Translations under genes and position numbers: made by a program | Origin: Gammaproteobacteria bacterium | Lineage (GTDB): Bacteria > Pseudomonadota > Gammaproteobacteria > Ga0077536 | Length of the DNA stretch: 64,000 nucleotides | NCBI GenBank assembly: GCA_021773835.1 | Contig: JAJFJQ010000010.1 | Span: 1 to 64,000 of the forward strand | Direction: 5' to 3' | The notes under the pieces: model-generated | What the model was told of the DNA's origin: nothing | The model's database searches: none | What the model saw: only the letters and a program-made list of their open reading frames with translations | Shown: in pieces, positions 27,313 through 54,811 of the stretch | Position numbering within the stretch: the stretch's first letter is position 1 | Layout: every line of letters starts with the position of its first letter

Positions 27313-28200
27313 TCAATGCTCGCGATACGGGATCTGACAATAAGAAACGCCCTGCTTGGGATTCGCGCCATGCTTCGTCAGAAACCGAGTTAACGAAGTC
27401 ATCGAATTATCAACATTCGGCGTTGGCCCCAGAAAAACATGTTCCAAGGGCACGTGGTTGGACGCATCTTTTTGCAGGAAAAATTCCATGAATGGAATCA
27501 GCATTGATCTGCCTTCGCGATACTCGATCGGTGCCTGGGAATGTTCGGTTATGATTGGCGAGACGATCCGCCACTCTTGCTCCTCATTGAATGTACCGTG
27601 CTTCAATAACGCGGCAATACGCACAAGGTCGCCTTCGACTTCTTCGAAAACATCATGGAAAGACTCGGAAGCATGGCGTTGGGATGTGTCGGTATTCTCG
27701 CCGCGCTGCGTCGCCAAGTTTTCAATGCTGGTTAGGATGGATTCGACCAGGTTTTTTTGCTTGCCGCTTTCGTAGATGCACTTACCTACTCGAAAACCTT
27801 GGGCACTGGCCGCCTGGCAAATAAGATCGGGTTGAAATCCGATACTCACGCCCCGACCGTGCGGACAGTAACCTCGCCATTGACTGAGAAGGTTTCCATC
27901 GGCGATGAATGACACAACGAACTGCAAATGTCCGTGCGTCAATCGTTGGTATATCCACTCGCGTAACTGCGACAGCAATTTCGTATGGGGAGACTGCGCT
28001 TCGATCCGTTGTGCAATATGAACGCGCAGGATATCAGCCGCATGCTTCATTTCAGCAGCATCACTAAAAAACCCGATCTCTGTAGCATGAAGCGATCCGG
28101 ACGCGACAATCTTCATCAACGCGCCCAAAGACGTGTAATGGTATAGGACCTTGCTTGGTTGCTCCGCAAATAAACTGTCGACGAGCTCAGTGAGTTGCAT
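27313..28200 (-). CDS. DUF2971 protein
   Basis: 295 residues with the marks of DUF2971: YHYTSLGALMKIVASGSLHATEIGFFSDAAEMKHA near the start and FIADGNLLSQWRGYCPHGRGVSIGF in the middle. The family is widespread, patchy and of unknown function, often found in mobile or defence-rich regions. It is divergent from the membrane cyclase-like gene, 196 bp apart, and may share its promoter region. Confidence 0.85.
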   Translation of the reverse strand: MQLTELVDSLFAEQPSKVLYHYTSLGALMKIVASGSLHATEIGFFSDAAEMKHAADILRVHIAQRIEAQSPHTKLLSQLREWIYQRLTHGHLQFVVSFIADGNLLSQWRGYCPHGRGVSIGFQPDLICQAASAQGFRVGKCIYESGKQKNLVESILTSIENLATQRGENTDTSQRHASESFHDVFEEVEGDLVRIAALLKHGTFNEEQEWRIVSPIITEHSQAPIEYREGRSMLIPFMEFFLQKDASNHVPLEHVFLGPTPNVDNSMTSLTRFLTKHGANPKQGVSYCQIPYREH

Positions 28201-28396: not shown

Positions 28397-29386
28397 ATGC
28401 ACGCAGTCGGTGCCGCTCTCTTAGGGTTCGTGGTTTTTGTTCTCGGCAAATTCATTTGGGTGCTGAGACTTTGCCTAATCGCCTACTTTGCGGCGTTGTG
28501 CATACCGCTATATGGCAGTTACCGCCAATTCGCAGCCCTCGATCGTTTTGTCGCCTGGGTCAACACCCCGACTCGCCCACTACAAGATGTCCTGCGCAGT
28601 AGCTTGCCCACCGAATTCGGAAGTATCGATATTACGCCGGCACTACTGCTGGTGATATTGGTCGTGTTGTGGTCAATGCTCGAGTCGCAATGGTCGAAGT
28701 GGCGTATGAGGGCCGCATTGTTAAGGAAAACCGCCCGGCATAAGGGGCGACTATCAAAGATCCGAAAAGAGGCCCGCAAGCAAGCCGCACAGATCGATGC
28801 ACTACCCCCAACACCCGAAACCTCCAATCGCGAGGAGTTACTCGAACTCTACGCCAGAACGAAGAAAGCGTTGGAGGCACAGAAACAATTCCTGGCGTTC
28901 CTGTCGATCGATGTAGTCGGTTCGACCCGCATGAAAGAGCACGAGGATGCAGCGATCGCCTCGCGAGATTTCTCACGCTACATGGCCATGGTTGACGAGG
29001 TGATCGAGCGACACGATTACCTAAAAGCGTCGTGGACACCGGATGGTGTCATGATCTGCTTTTGCGAGACGGCGCAAGCGGTTGCGGCTGGACAGGAGGT
29101 CTTACGGTCCCTCGAACGTTTCAATCGCGAAATCAAAGCCATGAGCGCTGACTTTAACGTTCGGATCGGAATAAATTCGGGGCAAGTCCTGTACGATGAA
29201 AAAGTACCGATGGAAGAGATGAGCGACCGCGTAATCGACATCGCCGGGCACCTGCAAAAATATGCACAGGAAAACTCGATTTATATCAACAAAAGAGCTG
29301 TAGACGGCGACATCGACGAGTCAGGCTTCGTGTTGGGCGACATGGAGGTCGATGGTTGCGAGGTCTTGGTGTGGAAACACGTTTGA
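28397..29386 (+). CDS. Membrane class III nucleotide cyclase-like protein, catalytic residues partly lost
   Basis: 329 residues: N-terminal membrane helices (about 3-40 and 80-95), basic coiled linker (98-165), then a cyclase homology domain. Metal aspartates are kept: D172 (SIDVVGST) and D216 (WTPDGVMICF). The transition-state Asn-Arg pair, normally VN-x-A-x-R-L, reads VIDIAGHL here, with D281 for Asn and H285 for Arg. It may be inactive, use a different reaction, or act as a nucleotide sensor. The phosphatase gene follows five bases later. Confidence 0.82.
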   Translation: MHAVGAALLGFVVFVLGKFIWVLRLCLIAYFAALCIPLYGSYRQFAALDRFVAWVNTPTRPLQDVLRSSLPTEFGSIDITPALLLVILVVLWSMLESQWSKWRMRAALLRKTARHKGRLSKIRKEARKQAAQIDALPPTPETSNREELLELYARTKKALEAQKQFLAFLSIDVVGSTRMKEHEDAAIASRDFSRYMAMVDEVIERHDYLKASWTPDGVMICFCETAQAVAAGQEVLRSLERFNREIKAMSADFNVRIGINSGQVLYDEKVPMEEMSDRVIDIAGHLQKYAQENSIYINKRAVDGDIDESGFVLGDMEVDGCEVLVWKHV

Positions 29387-51802: not shown

Positions 51803-52600
51803 ATGTCGGTTACGGAGTCGGACGCAATACAATCGGAAAAACGTCCCCCGGTTGCGGCCAAGGAGGCCGTATGGGTATTTGAATCCAATCTCGACGGTCG
51901 CCACGGCCGCGGTGCGCCAGCAGTTGCAGTTAATTGCCACGGGGCGGAACAAGGTCATGCGAGCGGCCCGACGGGAAACGCCTATGCGCTAACCACTCGT
52001 GATGCCGAGAATGAACTGCTGGATTGGGATGCGATAAAAGACAATATTCAGGCGTTTCGTGACCACGTGAGCGCTAAGCCGGATCGCAAATTTCGGATCC
52101 TTCCAAGTTCGCACAATAAATCCGAACACGAGCACGAACGCTTCGCCGATCTCCTACGTAATGTCCCGTCAAACTGCGAGCTGCCCGGTCGAATGCTCGA
52201 GCGCTTAGAACGTCTCAATAGCGTCCGAATAATCTTTCTCGATACCAACGTAACCTTGGTTCAGGGCGAGCGTGAACAAGTATTAGATCAATACTTCGCG
52301 GCCAATGCAGGTCTGTGGAACGCGGACCATATTGAAATCGTCAGCCTTGGCGCTGCTCAATCTCTTGTCGCCAACGCTAAGTACGCTGAGGAACGCGGTT
52401 ATCGTCACCGCATTATCAGCGCGGATCCCGATCTGTACGGTACTTACACCGAACAGGTGCGCGAGCAGTTGTCAGTTGCCTATTCGACCAAGCTAATATG
52501 CATCAACGATCCGACGGGCACTAGCACCGGCAATCAAGTCGGTGCATTGCATCTTGCAAATTGTGCGGGCTTACAAATCGATGAGCTTCTTATTCAGTAG
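51803..52600 (+). CDS. A1S_2505-like plus degenerate SLOG-like fusion protein, copy 1
   Basis: 265 residues, cytosolic. Residues 23-129 follow the layout of the phage-associated A1S_2505 family: VFESNLDGRHGRGA (canonical VFGSN-x-x-G-x-HG-x-GA), HGAEQGHASGPTGNAYALTTRD, a KP-x-RKFRI strand, then FADLLRNVPSNCELPG. Residues 141-265 follow a YspA/DUF2493-type SLOG domain: VRIIFLDTN, EIVSLGAAQSLVANAKYAEERG, DLYG and NDPTGTSTGNQVGALHLANCAGL. The glycine-rich nucleotide loops (GSR, GGARGAD) are lost. Weak ribosome site. Assignment rests on pattern comparison from memory. Confidence 0.6.
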   Translation: MSVTESDAIQSEKRPPVAAKEAVWVFESNLDGRHGRGAPAVAVNCHGAEQGHASGPTGNAYALTTRDAENELLDWDAIKDNIQAFRDHVSAKPDRKFRILPSSHNKSEHEHERFADLLRNVPSNCELPGRMLERLERLNSVRIIFLDTNVTLVQGEREQVLDQYFAANAGLWNADHIEIVSLGAAQSLVANAKYAEERGYRHRIISADPDLYGTYTEQVREQLSVAYSTKLICINDPTGTSTGNQVGALHLANCAGLQIDELLIQ

Positions 52601-52787
52601 TTAGATCGGAATTAATGGTATCTGCGCTAACGCTCGGAATTAGATGCGTCCACGCTGGTCAATCAGCCTAAGCTTCTAAATCGCGCACGCCGGCGGCACG
52701 ATTGCATGTCGGTATCCACTCGGCGTGAGCGACATGCTAAACAGACCACTATAATGACCACAGCGATAATTGAGAGGGTAATCGTTA

Positions 52788-53561
52788 ATGTCAGAAATGG
52801 CACATTCCGCTGCTACTAGCGGAATCATTTGGGTATTCGAATCGAGTCTCGGCGGCGAACACTCCGACGCTGCCGCCGCAATCGCCGTTAGACGACATGG
52901 CGCCAAAGATGGCGTCGGCAGCGGCGCCTCGGGGACAAGCTACGCGCTACAAACCCGCGACGACGAACATGTGCTGTTGCCTTTGAAAGAAATCGAAGAG
53001 AACGTACAAGAGTTTCGCGACTATGCAACCGCCCATCCGGAACTTAAATTTAAGATCGTCCCAGGGGCGCTGCGGAAATCTGACGAAGAACATGCCAGCT
53101 TCGCCGATTTATTACGCAATGTTCCGGCTAATTGTGAGTTGACAGGCCGCATGCTTGAAATCCTCGAGCGCTTAAAAACCGTTAGGATTATCTTGCTGGA
53201 CGCCAACGTAAATTTGGTTGATACCGCGGCACGTAAACGAGCCCTTGATCAATACTTCGCCGCGAATGAGGGCCTATGGAATGCCGAACAGATCGAAATC
53301 ATCAGCTTTGGTGCCGCACATACGCTAGTTGCCAATGACAAATACGCTACGGGGCGAAAGTATCTTCACCGCATTATTAACGTCGATGCAAACGTCTATG
53401 GCGACGATGCCGCCGAAGTACACGAAATATTGTCCGTCGCCTATGCGACAAAGCTAATTTGTCTCGATGATCCGAGCGGTACAAGTACGGCGGCACGAGT
53501 TAGTTCAATCCAACTTGCGGCCGGCGCCGGCCTCGAAATTGACGCCGTGCTGATCAAATAA
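52788..53561 (+). CDS. A1S_2505-like plus degenerate SLOG-like fusion protein, copy 2
   Basis: 257 residues, a paralogue of the gene 187 bp upstream with roughly half the residues identical by eye (for example FADLLRNVP-x-NCEL-x-GRMLE and LDQYFAAN-x-GLWNA). First domain (14-120): VFESSLGGEHSDAAAA, HGAKDGVGSGASGTSYALQTRD. Second domain (132-257): VRIILLDAN, IISFGAAHTLVANDKYATGR, YG, DDPSGTSTAARVSSIQLAAGAGL. It has lost even more of the His/Gly motif in domain 1. The FHA-cyclase gene follows 251 bp later on the same strand. Confidence 0.6.
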   Translation: MSEMAHSAATSGIIWVFESSLGGEHSDAAAAIAVRRHGAKDGVGSGASGTSYALQTRDDEHVLLPLKEIEENVQEFRDYATAHPELKFKIVPGALRKSDEEHASFADLLRNVPANCELTGRMLEILERLKTVRIILLDANVNLVDTAARKRALDQYFAANEGLWNAEQIEIISFGAAHTLVANDKYATGRKYLHRIINVDANVYGDDAAEVHEILSVAYATKLICLDDPSGTSTAARVSSIQLAAGAGLEIDAVLIK

Positions 53562-53583
53562 CCGGTACCGCCTATTACCGGTT
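53560..53583. terminator. Hairpin directly after the second fusion gene
   Basis: AACCGGTA, eight-base loop, TACCGGTT: a perfect 8-bp stem starting within the stop codon. No T-run follows, so it may be a weak terminator or an mRNA-end structure separating this gene from the FHA-cyclase gene. Confidence 0.45.
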
Positions 53584-53812
53584 GTGCGTTGAGTAGACAA
53601 CAAATCACGAAAATGTCTTGATCAAGCATGCGGATGCCGCTCCTCATATCCAATCCAGCGAAGCCCTGATCTGGCCTTAGGTCGGCCGGCCCAGTTTTCT
53701 GGTGGATCGACCAATGCGCCTCGTTGCGTTACCGCAGGATCAGCTGGTTTCGTTACCGAGACCATAATCCGGTATTATTACCAGTCTCATTCACAGGGAA
53801 CTCCTAGCCCCC

Positions 53813-54811
53813 ATGGCCTGGAAGCTCAGGATCAAAGACCATAATTCCGGCACAGTATCGGAGCAGATACTGGACCAAACTTCGGCACATATCGGCCGGG
53901 ATCCCAATGGTGACGTGACGCTCAAACACGACCGTGTGTCTCGACGCCACGTCGAACTACGCACCTCCACCTCAGGCACTGTGTCGGTTACCGACTCTAG
54001 TAGCAACGGTAGCTTCGTGCGCGAAGACGACAAATGGGTCCGTATTGAAGGGTCGATCGAGCTGCCGATGCCGTTCGTGCTGCGGATCGCGCATTGGACA
54101 CTGAAGATTGAAGATGTGATCGCTCCCCAGCCTGTGGAGGAAGAGGCCGAGCAAACGTGGGATCAATCCGTGATGATCCCAGTCGCCAGCCTAGGACATC
54201 GGACTGAAGCGATCCTTGTGTTCGACCTTTGTGAATCGTCGCTGATAGCAAGTAAGGACGATCACATGGCCTACCACCTAAAACAAAGACTGACGCAGAT
54301 CGCGGAGCCGATACTTGATGAATTTGGCCGCCGGTTTTTCAAGAGCACCGGCGACGGTTTTCTAGCAACCTTCGAAGACCCCGAGAAAGCCTTAGAAGCG
54401 GCGATCAAGGTCGAAGACCATATCCAATACAGAAATCAACGTACTTCTAATATGCCGATCCATTATCGCATTGCACTCCACTATGGAGATGTATGGGCGA
54501 TTTCCGCCGGCGGCGATGACGTACATGGTAACGACGTTAACATCACCTTCCGTATCGAAGGTGTGCAGTCAGCCGCGTTCCCTAGTGTTATCGCACTATT
54601 TCCGAAAAGAGATCGAATCCTTTGCTCCGGCGCATACTATGAACGCGTGAAGGACCATGCGGCGCATTTATCGCCTGAGTACTTACACTGTGGCGCCGCT
54701 ACCTTGAAAGGCATCGTTGATCCGGTCGATGTCTATTGGCTTAAAACACAGCACTCGATTGAGGATCTGGACTCAACGCTCGCCATCCGCACCGGACCAT
54801 CGTCTAACTAA
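53813..54811 (+). CDS. FHA-domain adenylate cyclase
   Basis: 332 residues, cytosolic. N-terminal forkhead-associated domain (about 4-100) with phosphothreonine-binding residues G28-R29, S43-R44-R45-H46 and N65-G66-S67. Then a class III cyclase domain (about 130-310) with metal aspartates D138 (VFDLCESS) and D181 (FFKSTGDGFLATF), purine-recognition K177 and probably D241, and the transition-state pair N243 and R247 (VNITFRIEG). All key residues are present, so it should make cAMP, perhaps switched by a phosphorylated partner. No membrane segment. Confidence 0.9.
   Translation: MAWKLRIKDHNSGTVSEQILDQTSAHIGRDPNGDVTLKHDRVSRRHVELRTSTSGTVSVTDSSSNGSFVREDDKWVRIEGSIELPMPFVLRIAHWTLKIEDVIAPQPVEEEAEQTWDQSVMIPVASLGHRTEAILVFDLCESSLIASKDDHMAYHLKQRLTQIAEPILDEFGRRFFKSTGDGFLATFEDPEKALEAAIKVEDHIQYRNQRTSNMPIHYRIALHYGDVWAISAGGDDVHGNDVNITFRIEGVQSAAFPSVIALFPKRDRILCSGAYYERVKDHAAHLSPEYLHCGAATLKGIVDPVDVYWLKTQHSIEDLDSTLAIRTGPSSN

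Follow-up and report, generated by a model that had tools for sequence, protein, structure and literature searches.

Proteins A and B, encoded by two adjacent genes of an uncultured Gammaproteobacteria bacterium (Ga0077536), are probably non-catalytic binders of a nucleotide, an ADP-ribose-type ligand or a protein, and form a pair of chromosomal macro-SLOG fusions, as judged from sequence comparison and a structure model. The stretch analysed here, called the window throughout, comprises 64,000 nucleotides of contig JAJFJQ010000010.1 (GCA_021773835.1), and all positions refer to it. The open reading frame (ORF) of A (51803..52600, + strand, 265 amino acids) is followed by that of its paralogue B (52788..53561, + strand, 257 amino acids) and then by a gene for an FHA-class III cyclase. 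The initial annotation had described A and B as adjacent paralogues, which is borne out by 56% identity over 257 columns, end to end (E 1e-103); a search of the genome found these two fusion-gene copies only.

We propose that A and B are a chromosomal tandem pair in a clade related to plasmid-borne fusions and to phage fusions described as acting on ADP-ribose derivatives. Without catalysis, the macro cleft, the SLOG pocket or both would bind a partner, be it a nucleotide, a ligand of the ADP-ribose type or a protein, and A and B may work together as an unequal pair. The macro-SLOG architecture is already known, since such fusions have been reported in phages. What appears distinctive in A and B is that both sites look eroded, yet nonsynonymous divergence (pN) lies well below synonymous divergence (pS) and the tandem pair is also present in a sister species, G001.

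The two halves of proteins A and B

The first halves of A (approximately residues 20-135; 51860..52207, + strand) and B (52818..53165, + strand) match the NCBIfam model A1S_2505_Nterm (NF049995) with 82.1 and 84.4 bits, respectively, against a curated cut-off of 45, and with E up to 1 the same model recognises all 24 rows of the family. NCBI names this domain only as a phage non-structural protein. The N-terminal domain of A was modelled alone with a mean predicted local distance difference test score (pLDDT) of 91.6, and a structural aligner, run over Foldseek's best 1000 PDB chains, placed the ADP-ribose hydrolase TARG1 (4j5r) on top with Z 9.8 and a root mean square deviation of 2.7, the superposition covering 109 of the 121 residues of the model. 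Viral macrodomains come next, with DarG at Z 9.0. Sixty-two chains reached a Z of at least 8; the 46 entries listed at Z of at least 8.0 comprise 31 macrodomain entries (TARG1, DarG, Poa1p and others, with Poa1p and 4gua being ones that we take to be macrodomains), 12 entries of one designed-hydrolase series and 3 of unnamed function. By model, the first half of A is a macrodomain fold. The corresponding half of B was assigned from its NF049995 match and its motifs, the structure model being that of A.

Searching the sequences of solved structures returned nothing significant for the N-terminal domain, the whole family or the standalone A1S_2505 domains; in a profile search started from the standalone domains TARG1 appeared at a sub-threshold E of 1.4. 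Acinetobacter baumannii A1S_2505 itself had been modelled earlier to a macrodomain fold (PMC6978653). Moreover, an A1S_2505-type domain is joined in one chain to an ADP-ribosylglycohydrolase domain (132 bits) in a Bacteroidales metagenome-assembled genome (MAG; L082 732-1895). The macro fold of the A1S_2505 half points to ADP-ribose chemistry, not to cyclic AMP (cAMP). As a separate observation, an A1S_2505-type protein of a Rhodobacter phage (L069 1992-2360) is annotated as 'ADP-ribosyltransferase', whereas the fold found for this domain type suggests a macrodomain.

The second half of A (approximately residues 139-265; 52217..52597, + strand) is Rossmannoid and SLOG-like, as is that of B (53175..53558, + strand), which was placed by its identity to A and by its motifs. 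None of the SLOG models of Pfam and NCBIfam matched the C-terminal half of either protein, and PF10686, the SLOG model of Pfam, matched none of the 24 rows of the family with E up to 1. The profile of the family aligns over its full length with both plasmid-borne A1S_2505-SLOG fusions, those of Acidiphilium and Halomonas (hhalign, E 5.2e-32 and 5.6e-31), and it is the second half of these two fusions that PF10686 matches above its gathering score. A third PF10686-bearing fusion, L114 from another gammaproteobacterial genome, is a triple fusion of DUF4326, A1S_2505 and SLOG (YAcAr). The AlphaFold2 (AF2) model of whole A had a pLDDT of 89.4 and a predicted template modelling score (pTM) of 0.86. 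Foldseek comparison of this model with viral proteins gave top ranks to functionally unnamed phage proteins of 28-30% identity, which we presume to be of the A1S_2505 type, and YspA/DUF2493 SLOG proteins account for 10 among the 50 viral matches listed (best E 2.1e-4). The same model gave poor superpositions in Foldseek against the PDB, and that result was not used; Bacillus subtilis YpsA lies outside the 50 structure matches listed for the SLOG half, which carries no weight either way. On sequence grounds, the second half of A and B is a degenerate SLOG domain homologous to SLOG. The two-domain layout of the initial annotation thus holds, through the NF049995 scores for one half and the profile alignment through the SLOG half of two fusions for the other.

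Motif loss and maintenance of the pair

Both putative sites of A and B have changed. In our motif table FGSN has become FESN in A and FESS in B, the PTKD position reads TTRD and QTRD, the RIGCG loop is replaced by PSSHNK and PGALRK, and the GGARGAD of the Acidiphilium fusion corresponds to LGAAQSL and FGAAHTL; the changes from GSN and GGARGAD had been noticed initially and are seen in the alignment. FGSN and GCG are common among standalone A1S_2505 members, and A and B lack both. Residue 27 is Glu in all 4 rows of the window's genus and Gly in the other 20 of the 24. The lysine of the TK motif is found in 0 of 24 family rows, with Arg at the aligned position of A and B, whereas 11 of 15 non-family domains and 2 of the 3 PF10686-bearing fusions have it. 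The motif table covers 10 standalone domains, each of which carries this lysine; five more rows, single-domain or fused in another way (L080, L082, L087, L088 and L113), four of which lack it, were left out. The lysine is likewise gone from three fused relatives (L078 and L111, which are in the table, and L112, which is outside it) that do not belong to alignment A1, an alignment of 24 of 25 proteins that omits the truncated L028 9381-10037. In two of these relatives, L111 and L112 of family f71, we also observed FES for FGS, with a different sequence in the SLOG half. The TK lysine may correspond to the catalytic Lys84 of TARG1, for which the only computed support is the sub-threshold profile match at E 1.4. 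The catalytic lysine is Lys84 in TARG1 and Lys80 in DarG (PMC9411070). For the YpsA clade of SLOG proteins, a substrate motif GxD/E has been described (PMC6459960), and it is found neither in LGAAQSL of A nor in FGAAHTL of B. Judged by these motifs, the macro and the SLOG site alike seem to have eroded in A and B and in their clade.

The genes nevertheless look maintained in sequence comparison. Between A or B and the nearest G001 copy, pN is 0.29 and 0.25 and pS, which is saturated, 0.80 and 0.85, and none of the 25 fusion-gene matches listed contains an internal stop. The tree unites the four copies of the genus (support 100/99) and joins B to one G001 copy (100/99; 66% protein identity), while no partner of A is singled out among the G001 copies (95/73); bootstrapping of this tree was incompletely converged, and the truncated L028 9381-10037 was kept in it. 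From this grouping, the doubling that gave A and B is most likely older than the split between the window's species and G001. The fusion family was found in 18 of 58 genomes, the window's own included: 18 of the 36 from the window's family and none of the 22 others. Of 274 genomes drawn from the class, 8 matched at E 1e-12; 3 of these belong to the window's family, and G206 matches over the first domain alone. Nine full-length relatives came from a scan of named genomes (7 MAGs titled Gammaproteobacteria, 1 Proteobacteria and 1 Klebsiella pneumoniae, which is probably a mislabel). Viral contigs returned no relatives when searched with A alone, and 3 matches, confined to the first domain, when searched with alignment A2.

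Several points weigh against a non-catalytic macro-SLOG pair. The ligand and the activity state of A and B, like their working as a pair, are matters that we infer. Foldseek alone is weak for the macro match: its PDB list is topped by a designed hydrolase (E 0.014), and the best macrodomain, C6orf130 (the TARG1 protein), has E 0.051 with probability 0.99, so that the fold call leans mainly on the structural aligner. Against solved structures, the SLOG half reaches a Z of 6.3 at most, a level at which common arrangements also score and which by itself would settle nothing. Four of the 15 non-family domains and 1 of the 3 PF10686-bearing fusions likewise lack the TK lysine. The saturation of pS means that pN/pS is not stated as a rate ratio, and the pair occurs in only 2 of the 4 genomes of the genus, the two without it being 57% and 82% complete. 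Finally, the macrodomain SCO6735 remains active as a hydrolase although both catalytic residues of TARG1 are missing from it (PMC9411070; the missing residues are noted in the review PMC7050489, too), and motif loss in A and B is therefore no proof of inactivity.

By the example of SCO6735, the catalytic residues of a macrodomain can be exchanged for others (PMC9411070), and A and B might accordingly still be enzymes in which the macro or SLOG site has been rebuilt with other residues and acts on a changed ADP-ribose or nucleotide substrate. In favour of this reading, the family has its own set of unvarying residues, among them Asp147 and Tyr61, which occur in 24 of 24 rows. However, in both proteins the SLOG motif has changed along with the glycine of FGS and the GCG loop, and we consider continued catalysis unlikely, if a reading of some weight. 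That A and B are decaying remnants of mobile-element genes without present function is very improbable: the motif-keeping fused relatives are plasmid-borne and the single-domain relatives reside on phages, but the matches listed are free of internal stops, pN is well below pS, the tandem pair exists in two species, and in other genera the gene recurs at a chromosomal position beside genes for CstA, a pyridoxal phosphate (PLP) decarboxylase and a redoxin.

The FHA-cyclase beside the pair

The three ORFs lie on the same strand, with 251 bases between B and the cyclase gene (53813..54811, + strand, 332 amino acids). Hydantoinase A and B genes lie upstream of A; downstream of the cyclase are a nucleoside hydrolase gene on the other strand and a gene for a periplasmic binding protein. 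At the end of B, a 10-bp hairpin without a T-run (53558..53585, + strand; -13.5 kcal/mol, z -2.60) was matched in stability by 4 of 200 shuffled sequences and could mark the end of an A-B transcript ahead of the cyclase. A terminator scan did not call it, no comparable hairpin was found after the G001 copy, and consensus promoters and terminators around the three genes were no more frequent than expected by chance.

The cyclase carries an FHA domain (37.5 bits, Pfam cut-off 20.7) and a class III cyclase domain that scores below the Pfam cut-off of 21.9 in the window copy (16.0 bits) and at 23.0 bits in an orthologue; phmmer relates it to the solved cyclase 3mr7 (E 1.3e-11). Its catalytic residues had been called intact, and the Asp, Lys, Asp, Asp, Asn and Arg positions, which we take to be the catalytic positions of class III cyclases, are indeed present in 15 of 15 aligned cyclase rows, the window's included. 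Independently of this gene, the window encodes a second class III cyclase-like protein (28397-29386, + strand, 329 amino acids; 21.0 bits for Guanylate_cyc against a cut-off of 21.9). Its N-terminus looks hydrophobic, it reads TPDG at the place of TGDG in the FHA-cyclase, and its gene adjoins one for DUF2971 (27313-28200, - strand).

Orthologues of the FHA-cyclase (48-69% identity, E < 1e-90) were found in 18 of the 36 genomes of the family, again counting the window's. The three-gene neighbourhood was looked for in the 13 genomes that hold both families: the fusion and cyclase genes adjoin only in the window's genome and lie on different contigs in all 12 others, an outcome that the initial annotation had named as speaking against its cassette. 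The gene calling was crude, and we therefore chose tblastn for the cross-check, which found the cyclase in 0 of 20 fetched fusion-gene neighbourhoods (14 of them from those 12 genomes) and the fusion gene in 0 of 16 fetched cyclase neighbourhoods (12 from those genomes). For six of the 20 fusion-gene neighbourhoods the absence is trivial, the genome having no full-length orthologue of the cyclase, and contig ends within approximately 1.2 kb of the fusion gene weaken the absences in L021, L025, L033, L035 and L040. Of the 17 other genomes that have an orthologue, 16 (all but G031) contributed a cyclase neighbourhood, those of L045 and L098 spanning only about 4 kb.

In other genera, different sets of genes recur beside the two: a PLP decarboxylase (9), CstA (8), a redoxin (7) and a DUF4919/tetratricopeptide repeat protein (7) among 22 fusion-gene loci, and a zinc alcohol dehydrogenase (10), an Alginate_exp-type protein (10) and a HerA helicase (8) among 16 cyclase loci, these counts being rough owing to the gene caller and to long antisense ORFs that masked the fusion gene in 4 of the 22 loci. 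Neither set occurs in the window or in G001, and both genes thus sit elsewhere in this genus; in G001 the cyclase lies approximately 2 kb upstream of hydantoinase homologues, without the fusion pair.

The initial annotation had read the locus as a possible nucleotide-signalling cassette. Layout, doubling and motif loss stand, whereas the cAMP link is not supported, the macrodomain indicating ADP-ribose chemistry. That the adjoining cyclase makes a response which A and B sense or scaffold, as the shared strand, the short gap and the intact residues might suggest, is highly improbable and was rejected on the different contigs in 12 of 12 other genomes, with the empty neighbourhood cross-matches, the separate recurring neighbours and the hairpin after B also standing against it. 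The FHA-cyclase is most likely a coincidental, unrelated neighbour of A and B. In the literature consulted, an FHA domain was not found together with an adenylate cyclase and SLOG, or with a class III adenylate cyclase. The cyclase weakly matches PycC in PADLOC (22.7 bits). The PADLOC core models did not match A or B at E up to 1, in a search that sought no effector, and a defence-system reading was dropped.

Relatives and possible role of the pair

Phage fusions of YAcAr/YpsA-type SLOG domains to Macro or NADAR domains, and of DUF4326 to Macro, SLOG and NADAR, have been described, and a part in the production, sensing or breakdown of ADP-ribose signals has been proposed for them (Iyer et al., 2022, PMC9503650; jumbo phage survey, 2021, PMC7824862). 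A and B resemble them in combining Macro and SLOG in one chain and differ in being chromosomal and in having lost the motifs; the Macro domains of these papers may or may not include A1S_2505. The DUF4326 addition in L114 fits the fusions reported in the same surveys. The phage relatives recovered here are single-domain, with 0 of 175 phage records covering 80% of the query.

The plasmid-borne 'SLOG family protein' of Acidiphilium (L068) and Halomonas (L067) has the same two domains in the same order and is homologous to A and B end to end. Unlike A and B, both fusions keep GSN, the SLOG motif and the PF10686 match; the Acidiphilium fusion also keeps TK and RIGC, whereas that of Halomonas lacks both. 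Compared with other proteins of the A1S_2505_Nterm model, A and B score above the cut-off in both N-terminal halves and differ by the changed FGSN and RIGCG and by the fusion to a SLOG-like half. The fold of the N-terminal half of A is like that of TARG1 and DarG (ALC1-like class), whereas A and B lack the lysine at the TK position and the GCG loop. A limited literature search found no description of a chromosomal, motif-less macro-SLOG branch.

In a narrower form of the binding-protein reading, A and B would be a domesticated, dead macro-SLOG pair: two proteins that together perceive a signal derived from NAD or ADP-ribose, as a receptor within the normal physiology of the chromosome's host. 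We regard this as rather unlikely; if true, a phage-type counter-defence module would have been turned into a housekeeping sensor. The macrodomain fold, together with the fusions to ADP-ribosylglycohydrolase, DUF4326 and SLOG, places the A1S_2505 domain toward ADP-ribose metabolism, and the chromosomal, motif-less branch to which A and B belong would offer a case in which to follow the change of phage-type enzymes of nucleotide signalling into host binding proteins.

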